Shown here: in pieces, positions 7,524 to 58,606 of the stretch | Numbering within the stretch: position 1 is the stretch's first letter | Layout: every line of letters starts with the position of its first letter | Assembly (NCBI GenBank): GCA_903928895.1 | Contig: CAIYSR010000005.1 | Coordinates: 1-59,185 of the forward strand | Direction: 5' to 3' | Origin: an uncultured Rhodospirillales bacterium | GTDB lineage: Bacteria; Pseudomonadota; Alphaproteobacteria; Acetobacterales; Acetobacteraceae | DNA length: 59,185 nucleotides | The notes under the pieces: generated by a model | The model's input: the letters and a program-made list of their open reading frames with translations, nothing else | The model's database searches: none | What the model was told of the DNA's origin: nothing | Program-made: the position numbers and the translations under genes

Positions 7524-9011
7524 ATGCCGGGAGTGCCGGTGTCATTTGGTCGTAGGCTCGCCGATCTGACGCGACTGCATCCTGATGCGATCGCTATAAC
7601 CCTCGCCTGCCAAGATGGGACCGAAGACCGGCTTGCCTGGGTGGAGCTAGACCGATGGGTCAACCGGCTGGCGCGACTGATGGCCTCGCGCGGCGTCGGG
7701 CCGGCAACCATGGTCTGCGTCGGCCTCTACAACAGCCTCGAACACTACGCCGCCACCATCGCCGCCTGGCGCCTCGGCGCATGCACCCTGCCCCTGAGCC
7801 CGCGGATGCCGGACGTCGAGTTCCGCGGCATCACCGGCCTGGTGGAAAACCGCCTGGTCATCGCCGACCGCGTCGATGCCGATCTCGCCAAGGCCGACAT
7901 CACCGCCCTGCGCCATGGCGGCCCGTGGGACGATGCCGACCTGCCCGACATCACCGCCCATCCCGGCAAGGCCATCGGCTCCGGCGGCTCGACCGGCCGC
8001 TCGAAGATCATCGTCGAACCCCGCCCCTGGGCGCGCGTGCCGGGCGAGGTGACGCTCGCCTTCGTGGCCGGATTGCGCAGCGGCCAGACACAGCTGGTGG
8101 CCGGTCCGCTCTACCACAACTCGCCCTTCTCCTGGAGCCATTACGGGCTTTTCGAGGAACAGCACCTCGTGGTGATGGAGCGGTTCGACGCTGCCCTGGC
8201 AGTGGACCTCATCGAGCGCCACCGCTGCCAGTTCATGTTCCTGGCGCCGACGATGATGCAGCGCATCGTCCGCCTGCACGACATCGAACAGCGCGATCTC
8301 TCCAGCATTGAATCGGTCTTCCAGACGGCGGCGCCCTGCCCGGTCTGGCTCAAGCGTCGCTGGATGGAGCTGACCGCCCCCGAAAAATTGGTCGAGGGCT
8401 TCGGCAGCAGCGAGGCCGCCGGCAGCTGCCGCATCCGCGGCGATGAATGGCTGGCCCATCCCGGCAGCGTCGGCCGCCCGCAGAACGCCGAACTTCGCAT
8501 CCTCGACGAGAATTTCGGGCAGGTGCCGACCGGCGAAGTCGGAGAAATATTCTTCCGGCCGGACAGCCACCCCGAACCGACCTATTATTACATCGGCTCG
8601 CCCCCGGCCCGCACGACGCCCGACGGCTTCGTCAGCGTCGGCGACATGGGCTATGTCGATGCCGAGGGCTACCTGTTCCTCTCCGACCGCCGGGTCGACC
8701 TCATCATTCGCGGCGGCGCCAACATCTACCCCGCCGAGGTCGAGGCGGCGCTGTCCGAATATCCCGACATCGCCGACGCCGTCGTGGTCGGCCTCCCCCA
8801 CGAGGAACTCGGCAAATCCGTCCACGCCATCGTCGAGCCGCGCTTCGGCGCCGAGATCGACGAAGCCGCCCTGCGTGCCTGGATGCGCGAGCGCCTCACC
8901 CCCTACAAACTGCCCGAAAGCTACGAATTCATGTCCCCCCTGCCGCGTGACCCGTCCGGGAAAATTCGGCGCTCCGCCCTCGCCCGCGAGCGCGCGGAGG
9001 CAGCACGATGA
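7524..9011 (+). CDS. Class I adenylate-forming enzyme (acyl-CoA synthetase/ligase)
   Basis: A 495-residue ANL-superfamily enzyme expected to activate a carboxylic acid as acyl-AMP and transfer it to CoA in the cytoplasm. The phosphate-binding loop is GSGGSTGRSK (from residue 152), the A5-type motif is GFGSSEAAGS (about 293), the hinge region is LSDRRVDLIIRGGANIYP (about 387-404), and the catalytic Lys is in PSGKIRR (about 479). The loop GSGGSTGRSK is close to the canonical SGTTGxPK pattern. GGGAGG lies seven bases upstream of the ATG. It is the first gene of a seven-gene run with overlapping ends; the following thiolase-like, DUF35 and dehydrogenase genes suggest breakdown of the activated acid. 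The substrate cannot be read from sequence. Confidence 0.88.
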   Translation: MPGVPVSFGRRLADLTRLHPDAIAITLACQDGTEDRLAWVELDRWVNRLARLMASRGVGPATMVCVGLYNSLEHYAATIAAWRLGACTLPLSPRMPDVEFRGITGLVENRLVIADRVDADLAKADITALRHGGPWDDADLPDITAHPGKAIGSGGSTGRSKIIVEPRPWARVPGEVTLAFVAGLRSGQTQLVAGPLYHNSPFSWSHYGLFEEQHLVVMERFDAALAVDLIERHRCQFMFLAPTMMQRIVRLHDIEQRDLSSIESVFQTAAPCPVWLKRRWMELTAPEKLVEGFGSSEAAGSCRIRGDEWLAHPGSVGRPQNAELRILDENFGQVPTGEVGEIFFRPDSHPEPTYYYIGSPPARTTPDGFVSVGDMGYVDAEGYLFLSDRRVDLIIRGGANIYPAEVEAALSEYPDIADAVVVGLPHEELGKSVHAIVEPRFGAEIDEAALRAWMRERLTPYKLPESYEFMSPLPRDPSGKIRRSALARERAEAAR

Positions 9012-17623: not shown

Positions 17624-17729
17624 CAGCCGTCGCGGAGCGGAGGATCGCACCGGACAATTGAAACCGGCCGCCCATCCGGTACACCATCGGGGGCGGCCAG
17701 GACGGCCAGCCCGGGAAGGAAGCGCCAGC

Positions 17730-18599
17730 ATGAAAATCGGAGTCTTCGCCACGTTCATGTCGCCACTGGCGACACCGCAGATGGTCCGCGACTTCGGTCG
17801 GCGGGCTGAAGGCATCGGCCTCGATTCGATCTGGATGGGCGAGCATGTCGCACTCTTCGACAGGAACACCTTCGGCTACCCCGGCGCGAAGGATGGGCGC
17901 ATCCCGGTCCCGGACGGCGGCGGAATGCTCGATGTCATAGCCACATTTGGCTTCCTCGCTGCCGCCACCACCAAGCTGCGCCTCGGCACCGGCGTCGCCC
18001 TGGTACCGCAGCGTAACCCGATCTACACGGCAAAGGAGATCTGCACGCTCGACTGGTTGACCGAAGGGCGCATTGATTTCGGCATCGGCGTCGGGTGGAA
18101 CAAGGAAGAGGTCGAGGCCTGTGGCTATCGCTGGGAGGATCGTGGCGCCCGCTGCGACGAATTCCTCGAGGTCATGCGCCTCCTATGGACCGAGCCGGTG
18201 GTGGATTTCGCCGGAAAATGGGTGAAATTCGAAACGCTACGGCTCGATCCTAAACCGATCCAAAAGCCGCATGTACCGATCATCGTCGGCGGCTATGCCG
18301 ATGCGGCGCTGCGCCGCGCAGTGCGCTTCGGTGCCGGTTGGTATGGCTTCAATCGCGATCCTGCCGGGACCAAGGAAATGGTCGCCCGGCTTGATGCGGC
18401 ATTTGCGAAAGCCGGCCGCAAGCGCGGCGATGACTTCGAGATCATCATCACGCCGCCGATGGCGATGTCGGTCGACGCCATGCAGGCCTATGCGGAGGCG
18501 GGCGTCGACCGCCTGCTCGTCAATCTCGGTGGCCAGCAGCCCAAGCGCGTCGACCATCGGCTCGCGGAGCTTGAGATGTTGGTTAAGATGGTCGCGTGA
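17730..18599 (+). CDS. LLM-class flavin/F420-dependent oxidoreductase
   Basis: A 289-residue TIM-barrel protein of the luciferase-like monooxygenase superfamily, close to the TIGR03619 subgroup. Recognisable stretches are GLDSIWMGEHVALFDR, LRLGTGVALVPQRNPIYTAK, GRIDFGIGVGWNKEE and PIIVGGYADAALRRAVRFG. Relatives use FMNH2 or F420 to oxidise varied substrates, and the true cofactor cannot be read here. GGGAAGGA upstream of the ATG at 17730 fixes the start. It ends the MFS, Gfo/Idh/MocA, LLM group. Confidence 0.88.
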   Translation: MKIGVFATFMSPLATPQMVRDFGRRAEGIGLDSIWMGEHVALFDRNTFGYPGAKDGRIPVPDGGGMLDVIATFGFLAAATTKLRLGTGVALVPQRNPIYTAKEICTLDWLTEGRIDFGIGVGWNKEEVEACGYRWEDRGARCDEFLEVMRLLWTEPVVDFAGKWVKFETLRLDPKPIQKPHVPIIVGGYADAALRRAVRFGAGWYGFNRDPAGTKEMVARLDAAFAKAGRKRGDDFEIIITPPMAMSVDAMQAYAEAGVDRLLVNLGGQQPKRVDHRLAELEMLVKMVA

Positions 18600-19278: not shown

Positions 19279-22200
19279 CTATGGGAGCCTGTCCCTCTCT
19301 CTCAGGGCGAGGGCCGCCCGACAAATGGCGATCCATTCGTCAAATGGGCCGGAGGATCCGACAAATCGGCCGATCTCAGCGGCATAGAGACCGTCGGCTA
19401 GGCGCCGCGGCAAACTGAGGGGTCCGGCTTGGCCGTCGGGCTTGGCGGTGACGCAGAGCAGCGGTGCCGGGCCGTGCTTTGCCATCGCAACCTTCAACGC
19501 GCGCATATCGGATTCGTCAAACGACGGCGCCGACGACGTGAAAACAAACATCTTCCGCCCCTCCCGAAGATCGTCGAGCAGCTTTCGTCGCAGATACTGC
19601 ATGGCGGCAATCGAGCGCCGGAGCATGACCTCAGTGCGATCCGGCCCAACGTCGTTGAGAGATTGGAACGTATGCATTGTCGCATAGGGCGTTACGAGAA
19701 CATGATCGGGCGCGCTCGGACCGACGGCCAACCGCGTGGGGTCGGCCAGGGCGCCGAAGTCGGAGACGAGGCCGTCGAGAAGGCGCTCATGGTCTGTCGC
19801 CGCCCAGCGCAGCAGACCGAGCGCTACATGGGCGCCAAGACCCTGCTGAACGAAGCCGAATTCGCAGCTACTGCCGAGGCTTTCGAACTCGGCCAGCCAT
19901 TGGTGCCCCCCGCCCCGCGTCTCGATCATCTTGCCTTCGGCCCAGTCCCAGCATCGCAAGATCAGGCGCGCCGGTCCCCGCCATGCCGGGATGAGGTCGC
20001 CTGCAAGGATGGCGTGACCATCGGTCCAGCGGCGACCGCTATGAGGTTCCCAACTATGAAAGCCATCGCCGAGAAACGGCTGGTCGAGCGTCACCTGCTG
20101 CCCCTCCCCCGCCTGCTCCCAGGCGATCGACTCGATCCAAACGCCAAGTCGCCGATCATCCGGCTGCCCGTTGACCTCGCGAGGCACCGCCCAGGGCGAC
20201 ACAATGCGAACGTCGCGGATCGGGAAGTTCAGTTCGAACTCATAGCCCCGCTCGTTCCTTCGGGAGGGCAGCAGTCGCTTGCCGTCGACGATCAGGTGAA
20301 CATGTCGCGGCTGGCCCCGTTGTTCCAGGAACGTCGCGATGCTGGTCAGGCTGAGGCCGGCTTCAATGAGGGCCGGTGGGACCCGCAGCCCGTGCGCTGC
20401 CTCGACTGCGGCGCAGACCAGCACCACGCCGAGCGAATCAACGCCCAGGTCTTCGAGCGTCTGCTCAGCGCCGAAGTCCCCTTCATGGATTGAGGGATGA
20501 TCCAGAACCTCGCGCCAAAGCCCAGCGACTGCCTGCTCCACGGGTGTGAATGGGCGGCGGGCCAACCGCTGTTGCTCCGGAGGCTCCTGCTTCGGCACGG
20601 TCAAGGCGGCACGATCCAGCTTGCCGCTGCTCGTGACCGGCAACGCGTCAAGCAGGACGAACGTCGCAGGGATCATCGCCGTCGGCAGGACCTCCATCAG
20701 CCGCCGCCGGATCACGCGGTCTCCGGGCGAGCCCCCCGGGGCGACGAGCCATGCCACCAGCCGTCGCGCGCCCCCCTTCCCGCGAACTCCGACCGCGGCG
20801 GCCACGATGCCACCGATGCGCAGGATTGCAGCCTCGACTTCACCGGGCTCGATCCTGACGCCGTGCAGCTTGATCTGGCTATCCGCTCGCCCGAGGTACT
20901 GCAGATTTCCGTCCGCGTCCCAACGGACCCGATCTCCGGTTCGATAGATAGGGCCGCCCGCCGGTGTTTCAGTCCCGAAGCGATCTGCTGTCAGATCTGG
21001 CCGGTTCAGGTACCCCGCGGCGATCCCTTCGCCTCCGATGTGAAGCTCTCCCTCGCAACCGCGCGGCAGCAACGCCCCTTGCCGATCGACAACACGCAGC
21101 GACATGTTCTGCAGCGGGCGCCCGATCGTCGGCGCAGCCGGGCTCCTTCCGATGTCCGCGAAGCTCGCATAGACCGTCGCTTCCGTTGGGCCGTACGCAT
21201 TGACCAGGCGCAAGCCGGGCCGCGCCGCCAATAGCCGATCGGACACGTCCCGGCGCAACGCCTCGCCCGCCGAGACGATGGTCATGACGTTTGGCGGCAG
21301 CCCGACCGATCGCACCACGGCGTCCAGCACCGTCGGACTGCTGCTCACCACCAGCGCCTCATCGCGCAGGGGACTCGTCGCCAGCTGGGTGAGATTGTCG
21401 ATCACCAGCACCCGCCCACCCGCCACGAGCGGACTGAACAATTCGAACATCGCGACGTCGAAGGTCAACGATGTGGAGAACACCACGCCCCGGCATGCCG
21501 ATGGTCCCAGCATGCGTGCTCCCCAGATCGCGAGATTGGCGATGCTCCGCTGCCGGATCACGACCCCCTTCGGCCGCCCAGTCGAGCCGGATGTATAGAG
21601 CACATAGGCCACGTCTCCCTCCCGGGCGGGATCAATCGCCGGGGCGGCGGTCTCCATCTCAAACCGGTCCGATCGCAGCTCCGCAACTCCGAGCCCCGCG
21701 TCATCGTCAGTTAGAACGAGGCGGACGCCAGCATCCTCCAGCATGTGGCGCTGCCGGTTGGGCGGATGCCGCGGATCAAGCGGCAGAAACGCTGCTCCCG
21801 CCAGATGGATACCCAGCAAGGCGGCGACCATCTCGGCGCTTCGTGACATCCGTACACCCACGATCGCCCCGCGTCCCTGTCCGGACGCGCGGACGCCCCC
21901 CGCAATGATTTCTGCGCGGAGCATCAGAGTGCGATAGCTCATCTCGACCTTGCCATCGCATACCGCCGGGGCATCCGGGGTGCGCTCCGCCTGGGCTGCG
22001 ATCAGCGCGGGGAGTGTGGCGGGGCGAGGCAGTTCCCGCCGCGGCCCGTCGCCAAGCCGACGCAGCGATCGCTCATCCGACGGGTCCATGATGCGCAATG
22101 AGGATGCCGGGTTGGACAACGAAGCCGGCAAATCATCCAGCAAGCAGCGCCACGCCTGGGCGATCCCGCGCTCTACCGGAATCGCCATCGCTCCCGCGGC

Positions 22201-23766
22201 CTCCATCTGCGGTGAATCCGGGTCATCGGCCTCGTGCATTACAACGACCGGATCGCGATCCGAACCCACCGGATCATCGCGCAACCTGCCCATAATCACC
22301 TTGAGCGCCGCACCGAGGGAATCCGTCGAACGTACCACGAGGGCGAACGACCGCCGCGGCGCCTGCCGCCGCTGAATTGCCACGACGATTTCCTCGTCAA
22401 GTCGATCAAGTACGCGCGCCGCCGCGACTGCGAACAAGCCGGCAGCTAGGCAATCAGGCTGCAAGCTCACCTTGTCGGCAAATTCAACCAGGCGCCCCTG
22501 CACGCCCTTCGGTTGCTCAACGCAATTCTCCTCGTTCAGCCCCGAGATGGTTGCCTGCAACAGCCCCTCGGCATCCCCAGCATTCAGTCGGTTCGGGTCG
22601 TGGTCGAGCGTCAGCGCAAGCCGCGCGCCGGACTCGCAGCACGACAGGATCAACGGTGCGCTGGGCCCATGGTAGCGCCCGACCTCTTCCCAACGCCCAT
22701 TGTCCACCTCGGGCATGTAACTGAAAAGAACGTCGACGGCTTGTGCTCCATCCGTCCCCCGACCACCGCGGGGGAATAGAATACGTCCATGACGGTAAGC
22801 GGTGCTGAGCGTTTTCCCGATCGACGCGGCTAGGTGCGGCACCGGCGCTTCGAGAGCATCGATGCCAACCGGTACGACAGTGGAAAAGCACCCGACCGTG
22901 TCCCTGAACCGGGCGCCTCCGCGCATGTCGACCTGAACCCCGATCCTGATGGCCGAACGCGCGAAGTGTCGACCAAGCGCCTGGGCAAATGCCGCGACCG
23001 CGAGACGCGCAACAGATGTGCCGGCTGCCGCGGCCCGCGCGCGAAGCTGTGCGAGATCGCCGAAGTGCGAACGCCGGAAACCTAGCCGACCGACCGGGGG
23101 GGTGGCCGGCCAGATGCTTCTCGGCAGCCGCGCGAGCGTCGATCGCCAGTAAGCGAGCGCCGCTGTCTGGCGCGCCACGGTTGTGGAACCTACGAAGGCC
23201 TGCAGACATGCTGAATATGGAGTGGGCGCAGGCGGCGCGGCAGCGTGACCGCCAAGGGCCTCCAGATGACTCTGCACCCGTCGGGAGAGTGCCAGGCGAC
23301 TATTTGCGTCGGCGGCGATCTGGGAAATGAAGCGCGCCCATAGGTGGACGTCCTCCTCAAGACGCACCAATGCAAAGCGGACAAGCGGCATGTCGGGTTC
23401 AAAGGCGGCGCCGTGACACTGCGTGTCGAACCACGCGATTGCGACCGCGGAGGGATAGGCGGCGCCGGAAAGATCAATCAATGGGCAATCGACGGCGGTG
23501 GCGCCTCCAACCAGCCTCGGGCGTCCACCAAGCAGCCGCACATGCATTTGGAGCGCTGCGGCCTCGTCAACCGCCTTGGTCAGAGCCTCGCGGAACAAAC
23601 CGACATCCAGAGACCCAGGAATTCGCAACAGGTCAGCCCTAAGACTTGCCGAGCAATCTCCGCGCAATTGGTCCAATTTCCACAATGATTCTTGAGAAGG
23701 TAGAAGTGCGAATGACCTCCTAGATTCTTTTGAGTCAAAACTTATTTTATTATTATAAATTTTCAT
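19279..23766 (-). CDS. Single-module NRPS (C-A-PCP) with unusual C-terminal extension
   Basis: About 1495 residues. Residues about 20-430 are a condensation-like domain whose HHxxxDG motif is replaced by SQIAADA (about 148-154). Residues about 585-1060 are an adenylation domain: LYTSGSTGRPKG, NAYGPTEATVY, YRTGDRVRWDADG, SSGKLDR. My hand-read specificity code is D-V-F-S-V-A-A-V-Y-K, with the Asp expected for an alpha-amino acid. The carrier-protein Ser is in LGVDSLGV (about 1111). Then comes a beta-rich segment (about 1155-1275, RRWTDG) and a final domain (about 1290-1480) with ESLGSSCEFGFVQQ. There is no thioesterase or reductase domain. The ATG at 23766 lacks a strong ribosome-binding site; a TTG at 23844 would add 26 residues. 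No MbtH, phosphopantetheinyl transferase or exporter gene is nearby. Confidence 0.85.
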   Translation of the reverse strand: MKIYNNKISFDSKESRRSFALLPSQESLWKLDQLRGDCSASLRADLLRIPGSLDVGLFREALTKAVDEAAALQMHVRLLGGRPRLVGGATAVDCPLIDLSGAAYPSAVAIAWFDTQCHGAAFEPDMPLVRFALVRLEEDVHLWARFISQIAADANSRLALSRRVQSHLEALGGHAAAPPAPTPYSACLQAFVGSTTVARQTAALAYWRSTLARLPRSIWPATPPVGRLGFRRSHFGDLAQLRARAAAAGTSVARLAVAAFAQALGRHFARSAIRIGVQVDMRGGARFRDTVGCFSTVVPVGIDALEAPVPHLAASIGKTLSTAYRHGRILFPRGGRGTDGAQAVDVLFSYMPEVDNGRWEEVGRYHGPSAPLILSCCESGARLALTLDHDPNRLNAGDAEGLLQATISGLNEENCVEQPKGVQGRLVEFADKVSLQPDCLAAGLFAVAAARVLDRLDEEIVVAIQRRQAPRRSFALVVRSTDSLGAALKVIMGRLRDDPVGSDRDPVVVMHEADDPDSPQMEAAGAMAIPVERGIAQAWRCLLDDLPASLSNPASSLRIMDPSDERSLRRLGDGPRRELPRPATLPALIAAQAERTPDAPAVCDGKVEMSYRTLMLRAEIIAGGVRASGQGRGAIVGVRMSRSAEMVAALLGIHLAGAAFLPLDPRHPPNRQRHMLEDAGVRLVLTDDDAGLGVAELRSDRFEMETAAPAIDPAREGDVAYVLYTSGSTGRPKGVVIRQRSIANLAIWGARMLGPSACRGVVFSTSLTFDVAMFELFSPLVAGGRVLVIDNLTQLATSPLRDEALVVSSSPTVLDAVVRSVGLPPNVMTIVSAGEALRRDVSDRLLAARPGLRLVNAYGPTEATVYASFADIGRSPAAPTIGRPLQNMSLRVVDRQGALLPRGCEGELHIGGEGIAAGYLNRPDLTADRFGTETPAGGPIYRTGDRVRWDADGNLQYLGRADSQIKLHGVRIEPGEVEAAILRIGGIVAAAVGVRGKGGARRLVAWLVAPGGSPGDRVIRRRLMEVLPTAMIPATFVLLDALPVTSSGKLDRAALTVPKQEPPEQQRLARRPFTPVEQAVAGLWREVLDHPSIHEGDFGAEQTLEDLGVDSLGVVLVCAAVEAAHGLRVPPALIEAGLSLTSIATFLEQRGQPRHVHLIVDGKRLLPSRRNERGYEFELNFPIRDVRIVSPWAVPREVNGQPDDRRLGVWIESIAWEQAGEGQQVTLDQPFLGDGFHSWEPHSGRRWTDGHAILAGDLIPAWRGPARLILRCWDWAEGKMIETRGGGHQWLAEFESLGSSCEFGFVQQGLGAHVALGLLRWAATDHERLLDGLVSDFGALADPTRLAVGPSAPDHVLVTPYATMHTFQSLNDVGPDRTEVMLRRSIAAMQYLRRKLLDDLREGRKMFVFTSSAPSFDESDMRALKVAMAKHGPAPLLCVTAKPDGQAGPLSLPRRLADGLYAAEIGRFVGSSGPFDEWIAICRAALALRERDRLP

Positions 23767-24204
23767 TTGCAATATGACGCAGTTGGCATAAATTTTACCA
23801 AATAAATCGCATGATTTGTGCTCGATCTCCCCAGTATTTTGCAATGTCTACGCCATGAAGGATCGCCCCGTCGACCACCTAATCGGCTGCGCTTGGGGCT
23901 GCCCTGGACGGCACCAGGACCCTTGGCCCTGTTCCAAATGCCGGAACCGAAGGTCTTCCAGACCGTCACGGAGCTCTCACCGACAGAAGGCGCCCACAAG
24001 CTACGACCGAACTCAAACAGCTGCGACCCCGCGTGGGAGAAGTGATGGACATGGCCGACCTCAACGACGCGGCTTTGGTCATGGGGAGAGAAGCTTTTAC
24101 CCCCAACACACACCTCCGGTTCGATCCACGACTGCCCGCCGCAAGATCACAGGGTCCCAGAAGTTCCGGGTCAATTGCCCCGGCCGCCGAACGCCCTGCC
24201 CTCT

Positions 24205-55634: not shown

Positions 55635-57089
55635 CTATCCCACCAGGGACCAGAACGCCGTTTTCTTCCCGTGGCTGCGCTGCAACTCGGCGACATAGGC
55701 TTCGTGCGGCACGAAAGCGCCGAAATCACGGATCGAAACGGCCAGCCCGGCGCAGTTCGCAAGGTGGCGCGCCGCGTGGCGGTAACGGCTGGTCCGGGTG
55801 TGGCCGAGGGTGAAATCCACCATCGCGCGCAGCAGCAGCGTCGCTGCCAAGGGATGGCGGCCGGCGAGGGCCTCGGCGGCGGGGGACAGGATCTCGTAGC
55901 GGTTGCCGTCGCGTTCCCCGGCACGGGCCAGGACCAGGCCGGCGGCGCGGTCCAGGGCCGGCCACGCGACGAAGAATACCAGCGCGGCGACAAAGCTCTC
56001 GGACTTGGCGACATGGTCCAACGCGCGCTGCTCGGCCTCGACATCGTCGAAATCCGGCAGGCGCTTGAGGTACTCGCGCAAATGAGGGGCGGATAGGGCG
56101 CCGGCGAAGCACTGCCAGCGCGTGGCCTGTGCATCGGCGGCCTTGCCTTGCGCGTCCAGCACCGCGATCAGCGCATCCTCCCAGGCGAAATCCCGTTCCC
56201 AGTCCAAATCCGGCGACCGGTCGCGACGACCGACCGCCGCCTCCAGGGCGTGCTGAGCCTCATCCAGGCGCCCGGCGGCGAGCAGGCGGGTGGCGATCTC
56301 GGCCGCGATCGCGGGCACCTTGCGGGTGGGCGCGTCATATTGGGCGATGAACCCGTCAGCATCGCCCGCGGCATCGGCGATTTCGGCCAAGGCCCGCCGC
56401 GCCGCGCCGCGCCGCGCGGAGTCTTCGAGGGTGTCGGCATAGATCGGTCCGCAGGGACTCCAGCCGATTTTCCTTCGATCCTTTTCAGGAATGACGCAGA
56501 CCGGCTCGCGCTGGACCTCCAGCATGCGTGCCTTGAGATGGGCGAGCCCCTGCGGCCCCAGAGCGGGCACGAGCGTGGCGAGGAGTCGGTCACATTGGCA
56601 GTGGCCGTTGCGCAGCAGTGCCTGGAACGTGCGCTCCGCCAAGTCGATCGGCTCGGCCGGAGCCAGCCCGGCCAGGGTCCCAAGGTTGGCGACTGCGCCG
56701 AGGAAGACATCGAAAATCGCCCCGCTGCTGTCGTCGCAGCGCCCGAAGATGCCCTCGGCCAGGGCCAGGAAGCGCCACATCAGGTCGAGCGCCTCGCCTG
56801 GATCGGCCTTCCCCAGCTTGTCGACGATGGCGCGCTGTTGCACCTCAAGATCGTCAATCAGGGCGCGCCTATTCTGCCAGTCGACAAACGTGCGTGCCCG
56901 GTCGATCGCGGCGAGTCGCTTGCGGATCGCGGTCGCGACCTCGTGCGGGCTGGCCAGGCTGGCCAGTTCAAGCCGAAGGCGCCGCTTGAGCGCAGCGTCG
57001 CCGGTGCTGATCTCGACGAGCAGCGCGGCCAGACGCTCGACGCCGAGTGCCGCGAGGTTTCCGGCCGTCAGCGTTGTCTTCGCGGCCAT
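55635..57089 (-). CDS. DUF6880 family protein
   Basis: A 484-residue cytoplasmic protein of unknown function. The N-terminus (LAALGVERLAALLVEISTGD, DWQNRRALIDDLEVQQRAI) and PGEALDLMWRFLALAEGIF match my memory of the DUF6880 family, common in alphaproteobacteria. It is helix-rich, with a repeat-like architecture; some segments resemble TPR/SEL1 units. AGGGAG lies upstream of the ATG at 57089. It follows the sulfotransferase-like gene by 65 bases on the same strand, and ends facing the FTR1 gene 30 bases away. Confidence 0.82.
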   Translation of the reverse strand: MAAKTTLTAGNLAALGVERLAALLVEISTGDAALKRRLRLELASLASPHEVATAIRKRLAAIDRARTFVDWQNRRALIDDLEVQQRAIVDKLGKADPGEALDLMWRFLALAEGIFGRCDDSSGAIFDVFLGAVANLGTLAGLAPAEPIDLAERTFQALLRNGHCQCDRLLATLVPALGPQGLAHLKARMLEVQREPVCVIPEKDRRKIGWSPCGPIYADTLEDSARRGAARRALAEIADAAGDADGFIAQYDAPTRKVPAIAAEIATRLLAAGRLDEAQHALEAAVGRRDRSPDLDWERDFAWEDALIAVLDAQGKAADAQATRWQCFAGALSAPHLREYLKRLPDFDDVEAEQRALDHVAKSESFVAALVFFVAWPALDRAAGLVLARAGERDGNRYEILSPAAEALAGRHPLAATLLLRAMVDFTLGHTRTSRYRHAARHLANCAGLAVSIRDFGAFVPHEAYVAELQRSHGKKTAFWSLVG

Positions 57090-57154
57090 CCGGTGTCTCC
57101 CTTTGCCCGCGCCGGCTTCGCGCGATTCTGGTTTGGTTGATTTCGCAGCGCCGA

Positions 57155-58606
57155 TCAAGGTCCCGCTGCGCCAACCGGCCCCGGCGCACTCTCCGCTCCC
57201 CCCTGGCGCCGGGCCTCGGCCTGCAACAGCCCGGCGACCAGCGCGATGACCTCTGGCGCCGAAAGTTCGGGCACACACTCCGCCTCCGGCAGACCCAAGA
57301 AATCCGAGGCGAACAGGGCGGGACGTTCGGGAAACCATTCCTCGCGCACCCGCGCATTGCCAGCGGCGAACTGACCGATGAAGGCCTCCGCCCGTCCTCG
57401 CGCCGGCAGCACGCCGCCTCCAGGGGCGCTGCGCCGCAGGTTCGCGGCGACGAACCCGGTCATCCACGCCGCCTCGTCCCGCCCGGCGATGGCGGCAAGG
57501 AAGGCGCGCAGGAACATCTGCGCCGCGGCCGAGATGTTGCCGGCCAGCCGTGGCGGCCGCGCCATGCCGGCGATGTCGACGCCGAGGCGGGCGAAGAGGT
57601 CGGTCACCACGTCGCCGTCGCGCAGTTCGGCGGCTCCATAGATCGCCGGCCGCATCGCCTCGTGGCCAAACACCGCGGCCCAGCGCGCGAGCAGCCTGGC
57701 ATAGTCGAAATAGGCCGGATCGGTGACGCGCGGGCCGGTATAGTCATCCGGATAGGGCAAATGCGGCAGCATCTCGGCGGCAAGGTCGCCGGCGAGCAGC
57801 TGCATCGCGTGTTGGCTCATGGCCAGTTCGTGCTGCGGCCGGAGATAGACCATCACCTCGAAACCGCTGACCCAGGGCGCGAGGAAGCCGTGCAGGGCCG
57901 CGATCTCGTGCAGCAGTTGCATCCGGCTGTGGCAGTGCTCGCTCGACAGCAGCAATGTCGTGCAGCCCTCGGGCGCGGTGGCGATCTCGCTCGCCAGCGC
58001 CGCCGCCGCCTGGGCGCGGAACCGTGCCAGCGCGGCGGCGTCGGTGACGCCGCGGGCCTGCCGCAGTGGGTCGTCGAGCCGCCAGTCCGCCAGCGACATC
58101 GCGGCGAGATCGGAATGGTTAAGCCCCCCCTCCGCATCCGCTGGCGCCAGACTGACCGGCACGAACACGCCTTGCGCCATCAGCGCCTCGCGGTTCTGCG
58201 CCAGGAAACGCTGCACCGAGGTGGTCCCGGTCTTTTCGGTGCCGATATGCAGCACGCAGCGGCGGAACCGCGCCTGCGCCGGGCGCGGCGGCGGCGGCGG
58301 CAGGAACGGGTTGGGCTGCGGCCCGCCATAGGCATCGAACAGCGCGAGGTCGCTGCCCTCGACGCGCAGATGCACCCCGTCACGCTCACCCGGAGCCAGC
58401 TTCCATGGCGGCACGAACCCGAACCCATGGGCACCGACCCCGGCCGCATCGAGATCGGCGCGTGCCGCATCGGCATGGCAGGTGCCGAGCAGGGTGCGGC
58501 CGCTGAACACCTGCAGCCGCAGCACCGCGTCGGGCGCGTCGAGATCCCGCGCCCAGCCGGCGATCCGGTCAGGCTCGCAGACGTCGATATGTCCGTCGAG
58601 CCGCAT
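57155..58606 (-). CDS. Sulfotransferase-like protein with N-terminal beta domain
   Basis: A 483-residue protein. Residues about 1-105 form a small beta-rich domain (GHIDVCEPDRIAGWARD, LGTCHADAARADLDAAG) that is common in front of glycosyl- and sulfotransferase-like domains in alphaproteobacteria. From about 115, LHIGTEKTGTTSVQRFLAQN gives a P-loop-like PAPS-binding 5'-PSB motif. The start at 58606 lies five bases after the preceding gene's stop, so the two are probably cotranscribed. The acceptor is unknown; polysaccharide modification is a guess. Confidence 0.78.
   Translation of the reverse strand: MRLDGHIDVCEPDRIAGWARDLDAPDAVLRLQVFSGRTLLGTCHADAARADLDAAGVGAHGFGFVPPWKLAPGERDGVHLRVEGSDLALFDAYGGPQPNPFLPPPPPRPAQARFRRCVLHIGTEKTGTTSVQRFLAQNREALMAQGVFVPVSLAPADAEGGLNHSDLAAMSLADWRLDDPLRQARGVTDAAALARFRAQAAAALASEIATAPEGCTTLLLSSEHCHSRMQLLHEIAALHGFLAPWVSGFEVMVYLRPQHELAMSQHAMQLLAGDLAAEMLPHLPYPDDYTGPRVTDPAYFDYARLLARWAAVFGHEAMRPAIYGAAELRDGDVVTDLFARLGVDIAGMARPPRLAGNISAAAQMFLRAFLAAIAGRDEAAWMTGFVAANLRRSAPGGGVLPARGRAEAFIGQFAAGNARVREEWFPERPALFASDFLGLPEAECVPELSAPEVIALVAGLLQAEARRQGGAESAPGPVGAAGP

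Follow-up and report, generated by a model that had tools for sequence, protein, structure and literature searches.

A recurrent fusion of a lone NRPS module to a DUF1796-like domain in Acetobacteraceae suggests a possible way of passing an activated building block on to an acceptor

NRPS modules generally terminate in one of a few kinds of release domain. In a 59,185-nucleotide contig of an uncultured Rhodospirillales bacterium of the Acetobacteraceae (GCA_903928895.1, CAIYSR010000005.1; hereafter referred to as the window), a single condensation–adenylation–carrier (C-A-PCP) module instead continues into two further domains, T1 and T2. How would an amino acid held on such a module leave it, and what would the tail contribute? 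A sequence-only reading of this DNA had proposed that the tail releases the aminoacyl group, or attaches it elsewhere, in a new way. Here we report that the recurrent architecture is real, and that the uncharacterized T2 tail suggests a so far undescribed route by which an activated building block could reach an acceptor; the reaction itself is a proposal. The gene and its parts are as follows.

19279 to 23766, minus strand: whole gene (P0001), C-A-PCP-T1-T2, 1,495 amino acids; ATG at 23766, stop codon ending at 19279
22780 to 23712, minus strand: condensation-like domain (Pfam Condensation, residues 19 to 329, 64 bits)
20791 to 21939, minus strand: amino-acid adenylation (A) domain, specificity residues DVFSVAAVYK
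20620 to 20841, minus strand: AMP-binding_C, the C-terminal subdomain of the A domain (Pfam, residues 976 to 1049)
20329 to 20532, minus strand: carrier (PP-binding) domain (Pfam, residues 1079 to 1146)
20434 to 20436, minus strand: Ser1111 of the GVDSLG motif, the expected phosphopantetheine site
19921 to 20319, minus strand: T1, beta-rich, containing RRWTDG; a related domain follows Hint_2 in locus L043
19285 to 19920, minus strand: T2, a DUF1796-like domain with ESLGSSCEFG, assigned by profile comparison and predicted fold
19864 to 19866, minus strand: codon of Cys1301, candidate nucleophile (invariant in the 84 aligned T2 sequences)
19672 to 19674, minus strand: codon of His1365, candidate base (His in 80 of those 84 sequences)

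A Pfam scan of the 1,495-residue protein placed the AMP-binding domain at residues 590 to 920 (223 bits), and the NCBIfam amino-acid adenylation model TIGR01733 scored 362 bits against a cut-off of 317.4. The PP-binding match reached 31 bits (cut-off, 20.8), with the attachment-serine motif GVDSLG starting at residue 1108; in the tail, RRWTDG starts at residue 1245 and SLGSSCEFG at residue 1296. Pfam, NCBIfam and the open reading frame thereby bear out the domain order and coordinates of the sequence-only reading, including its two extra C-terminal domains and its positions for Cys1301 and His1365. An alternative TTG start at 23844 is also open for the same frame, and many stops break plus-strand translation of 19279 to 23766. 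Beyond residue 1146, no Pfam family matched the tail of about 350 residues at E ≤ 1, and no thioesterase, reductase or terminal C domain was found there at the same threshold; a standard thioesterase or reductase in this place had been named as a refutation of the sequence-only reading. The first codons of the gene (23700 to 23766) are strikingly AT-rich in a window of 65% GC, with no clear ribosome-binding site by eye.

The module appears to work outside an assembly line. The absence of the usual NRPS partners, first remarked for the neighbourhood, extends to the source genome as a whole: only one of its 22 adenylate-forming matches, the window gene, lies above the amino-acid adenylation cut-off, its single Condensation match falls within the same gene, and no partner NRPS modules were found. 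The genome has one phosphopantetheinyl-transferase match and one match to the T1–T2 tail. In the window protein, the HHxxxDG motif of the C domain, whose second His is the catalytic residue, reads SQIAADA, with Gln in the place of that His. Gln takes this place in four of the five C-bearing sequences, three of the four being closely related; L032 alone retains the second His (NHLVIDR), and its C domain may therefore act, which weighs against our preferred explanation. In L035 (genome G014), no C domain was detected and the layout is A-PCP-T1-T2. Judging from the motif, the window's C-like domain is probably not catalytic, and peptide-bond formation by it is unlikely because the motif is defective and no upstream module was found in the genome. 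The protein thus shares the C-A-PCP order of NRPS termination modules, but differs from them in its C motif, its T1–T2 tail, the lack of a detected thioesterase or reductase and the lack of partner modules in the genome.

The A domain carries a specificity code, DVFSV[A/I]AVYK, that is common to all six fused genes (positions located by motif and numbered as in GrsA). Its Asp and Lys are typical of alpha-amino-acid activation. Four positions of the window's own code, DVFSVAAVYK (A301, A322, V330 and K517), coincide with the phenylalanine code; that the substrate is aromatic or bulky is only a guess from these residues.

Around the window gene, no acceptor, exporter or glycan gene is obvious from gene starts, which weighs against a transfer reaction. 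The one near neighbour that was domain-scanned (17658 to 18599) is a luciferase-like monooxygenase, and a second AMP-binding match of the window lies about 10 kb away, at 7557 to 8999.

We searched 397 genomes of the family, including that of the source, and found the A-PCP-T1-T2 chain in the source genome and in at least five of the other 396, a lower bound because only the best-scoring tail matches were inspected. Since it recurs in at least five further genomes, the fusion is real and an assembly artefact, the refutation that had been foreseen for it, is ruled out. One of these five (G273) has an internal stop: at L051:1385-5908 (the same gene in L031), the fused homologue is interrupted by one in-frame stop and was read as two pieces. 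Between two close copies (L033 and L034), dN/dS is 0.24 for C, 0.18 for A, 0.17 for PCP, 0.22 for T1 and 0.20 for T2; these low values in every domain indicate that all parts look kept by selection, T2 being under purifying selection. In a T2 tree (quick search, no bootstrap, midpoint root), the four NRPS-fused T2s included cluster together (SH-aLRT 98) within the T1T2 group (SH-aLRT 97), a nested position that fits a single fusion of the cassette. Two glycosyltransferases and an ABC transporter adjoin the fused gene in L034, and two ABC transporters, one of them SbmA/BacA-like, lie near that in L035. These neighbours of two fused homologues are the only hints of the transfer to a surface polymer or protein that the sequence-only reading had suggested. 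A T2 search of 150 genomes drawn from the phylum found only one match, the source genome itself, and a search of plasmid records with the tail found a single partial match, 29% identical, in a Paracoccus protein annotated 'hypothetical protein'.

The same parts also occur as separate genes. Among the best 80 of 188 relatives (in named genomes), 28 loci encode T1 with T2, fused to the NRPS in five and stand-alone in 23. A carrier match lies within 60 nt on the same strand of 20 of the 23 stand-alone T1T2 genes and within 1.5 kb of 22, that of L077 being on the opposite strand; L065 has no carrier match. An adenylation domain lies within 408 nt of the T1T2 gene, or overlaps it, in 16 of the 23 loci (on the opposite strand in L060, L061 and L066), whereas the other seven have no nearby adenylation match, which weighs against our explanation. 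These counts come from home-made carrier, FkbH and adenylation models partly trained on loci that were later counted (seven FkbH proteins; the carriers of seven loci and the window; the A domains of the window, L039, L116 and L121), and the loci include near copies or close kin (L051/L053/L054, L071/L081 and L063/L068). Run on chosen examples, Pfam recognized the carrier in both L039 and L045, as well as the L039 A domain. That the parts stand side by side as genes in some genomes and form one protein in others is strong evidence that they work together, and the window NRPS resembles a cassette of this kind joined into a single protein. From these gene arrangements, the link of T1–T2 to carrier proteins is well supported, and the proposed connection to a carrier-bound acyl group gains support with it. 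The code Asp is absent from all 15 stand-alone cassette A domains that have a letter at this position, so the cassettes probably carry acids other than alpha-amino acids, a further point against our explanation.

What does T2 do to the carrier? In an alignment of 84 T2 sequences, comprising the window and 83 of 92 distinct T2 stretches over 140 bits (L051, L054, L081, L101, L104, L116, L120, L126 and L129, mostly near copies or shorter pieces, were left out), Cys1301 is kept in all 84 and His1365 in 80, so the residues singled out by the sequence-only reading are conserved. We favour, at slightly better than even chances, a self-contained protein that activates, carries and transfers, rather than an assembly-line station, in which T2 acts as a Cys–His acyltransferase from carrier to acceptor. 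The four sequences without the His weigh against a catalytic role and are compatible with a different one, in which T1–T2 does no chemistry on the thioester and instead presents the loaded carrier, by docking or positioning it, to enzymes that oxidize, glycosylate or export its cargo in trans. Such docking would also suit the other settings of these domains, T1-like next to Hint_2 and T2 next to TPR and glycosyltransferase domains, but the near-invariance of the Cys and the His exceeds what a scaffold needs, and we consider it fairly unlikely.

T2 also occupies the position of the usual thioesterase, and its conserved Cys and His would also suit a hydrolase that frees the amino acid, perhaps tailored, from the carrier. 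Some cassettes adjoin genes whose first residues suggest tailoring of a carrier-bound acid. Loading followed by hydrolysis would, however, be pointless without a tailoring enzyme, none being evident by eye near the window gene, and neither the window tail nor any of 24 T2s scanned has a Pfam thioesterase match, which makes hydrolysis unlikely. Near the T1T2 cassettes, four genes (L042:5774-6913, L043:6968-8149, L048:4214-5476 and L049:3335-4585) have first residues that look acyl-CoA-dehydrogenase-like by eye; from this resemblance, their products possibly tailor carrier-bound acids. The invariant Cys could, finally, mean that the aminoacyl group stays on T2, with Cys1301 or a neighbouring residue as its final acceptor, where it would serve to tag the protein or as a stored form. 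We regard this as highly improbable: the group is already kept on the carriers, and conservation of the His points to turnover.

T2 had been described as a papain-like or DUF1796-type domain, and the two halves of this description fared differently. A profile of the 84 T2s aligned with four DUF1796 proteins at E = 2e-6 over 184 columns, Cys on Cys and His on His, the match of the Cys being partly by choice because these proteins, from three genomes, were picked from six matches by the motif S-[LIF]-G-x(1-3)-C. All 15 decoys (the reversed profile, ten column shuffles and four unrelated families) gave E = 0.011 or worse. By the Pfam gathering score, DUF1796 (PF08795) was not reached: the window T2 matched no family, and one of 24 T2s matched DUF1796 at E = 0.17. 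A confident model of T2 (residues 1279 to 1495; pLDDT 93, pTM 0.89), in which Cys1301 directly precedes a helix and His1365 lies within a strand, matched eight viral models (E < 1e-3, probability 1.00, query TM score 0.50 to 0.65). Seven of these are named papain-like cysteine peptidase and one, from Pyramimonas orientalis virus, is named glycosyltransferase; we took them as DUF1796 proteins from their names alone. On these profile and fold comparisons, T2 is a remote DUF1796 relative, one that lies beyond the reach of Pfam and, in difference from that family, is tied to carrier proteins.

The papain label, by contrast, is not borne out, because no solved structure matches: a PDB fold search with both predicted models gave no match at E ≤ 1e-3, so that a papain-like fold (clan CA) is unsupported, although failure to find a match counts for little. 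In Pfam, DUF1796 is labelled a putative papain-like cysteine peptidase, and T2 might accordingly be peptidase-like, its link to carriers reflecting shared islands of glycan or secondary-metabolite genes. The seven viral names agree with this, as do the clustering of T2 genes with FkbH and the fusion of some to glycosyltransferases. Against it stand the confident model that matches no solved structure and the ties to carriers, by fusion or through adjoining or overlapping genes, which are tighter than island clustering; we judge a peptidase improbable. PF08795 is absent from the main text of the papain-like classification paper (PMC10318531). In a limited literature collection, no paper mentioned DUF1796 by that name and the peptidase name turned up in one paper on barley; no catalytic activity for T2 or DUF1796 was found, this architecture was not described among the matches listed for unusual or thioesterase-less NRPS release, and a search for Acetobacteraceae NRPSs with adenylation and papain-like domains returned nothing related. 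A sequence search of solved structures with T1–T2 gave two capsid matches at the level of chance (E = 1.6 and 1.7).

The domains also occur in the company that the sequence-only reading had named for them, Hint and glycosyltransferase proteins. At L043:14877-16187 (minus strand), a T1-like domain is C-terminal to a Hint_2 domain, and a Pfam scan of ten T2 proteins found GT61 in one (L090), GT2 in one (L089), WcbI in one and TPR in three, with no Pfam family in six.

T2 is found without T1 at 52 loci, whose examined flanks contain a carrier in 26, FkbH in 17 (weak in L100) and a strong fatty-acyl-AMP-ligase-like match in four; the other 26 have no carrier match in these flanks, which weighs against our explanation. 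Of six carriers at these loci that were scanned, five exceed the Pfam cut-off and that of L122 falls just under it; seven FkbH proteins exceed the cut-off of TIGR01686 (NCBIfam), whereas two ligases scanned matched FAAL models below their cut-offs. FkbH enzymes are described as makers of glyceryl-ACP (PMC7489565). Across the 397 genomes, tail and FkbH co-occur above chance (both in 85, tail only in 68, FkbH only in 58 and neither in 186; Fisher p = 1.5e-10), the 153 tail genomes being those with matches to the whole T1–T2 tail, some weak and some perhaps to T1 alone. Among the matches listed (97 FkbH places at 225 bits or more and 150 tail places), 24 of 97 FkbH genes have a tail match within 5 kb, where a rough uniform estimate expects about 0.3, and 26 of 150 tail matches have an FkbH gene within 5 kb. 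Because T2 is fused to glycosyltransferase domains in some proteins, shared glycan islands remain a confounder, and common residence in such islands may be all that brings FkbH, T2 and glycosyltransferases together.

Under the transfer mechanism that we favour, the A domain would adenylate one alpha-amino acid and then load the fused carrier arm, as follows from the domain families. T2 would accept the aminoacyl group from the carrier, in all likelihood on Cys1301, with His1365 serving as base, and would then deliver it to an acceptor, at a hydroxyl or amine; this acceptor is perhaps a glycan or an exported molecule, while the beta-rich T1 would probably help to bind or place that acceptor.

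The closest system in logic is Dlt (DltA adenylation, DltC carrier, DltB and DltD), which activates, holds and hands on one amino acid in the D-alanylation of teichoic acid. In both, a single amino acid is brought, or would be brought, towards a polymer by a separate A domain working with a small carrier, and an A domain, a carrier and a further protein are encoded together, as seen here from genes alone in 16 of the 23 stand-alone T1T2 loci. In Dlt, a previous study reports, DltC is bound successively by AcpS, DltA and DltB (PMC9338922). The window system differs in that T1–T2 replaces DltB and DltD, in that it forms a single chain, and in that its A domain scores far too low for either DltA model (204 bits where the cut-off is 476, and 201 where it is 560). 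A functional analogue of the proposed role of T2 is BtrH (BtrH_N, PF14399), an acyl carrier protein:aminoglycoside acyltransferase according to the classification paper (PMC10318531), although homology to T2 is undetectable: membership is unsupported, as T2 aligned with BtrH_N at E = 0.099 over 17 columns (eight proteins from nine loci, that of L139 apparently in the wrong frame). Amino acid:carrier-protein ligases, paralogues of aminoacyl-tRNA synthetases, likewise load a lone carrier and have liposaccharide-synthesis genes nearby (PMC2922099), but differ in the loader, which in the window is an NRPS A domain.

It is possible, short of probable, that T2 and its DUF1796-like kin form an unrecognized class of carrier-protein acyltransferases that decorate glycans or exported molecules and are served by several loaders (A domains, FkbH glyceryl loaders and fatty-acyl-AMP-ligase-like proteins), the NRPS fusion being the most compact form and T2 a new NRPS offloading domain. 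If the proposed transfer is correct, a Cys–His transferase of a little-known family would be an additional route of NRPS release, DUF1796, labelled a putative peptidase by Pfam, would gain a testable function, and Dlt-like aminoacylation of surface or exported compounds would be indicated in Gram-negative Acetobacteraceae. The split cassettes supply small proteins that can be tested singly.

At four further places (L080:3948-11008, L091:2-2281, L108:2201-5910 and L113:4889-7633), several T2 domains occur in neighbouring genes or within one protein. Elsewhere in the window, the minus strand at 55635 to 57467 has a very strong match to DUF6880 (586 bits).
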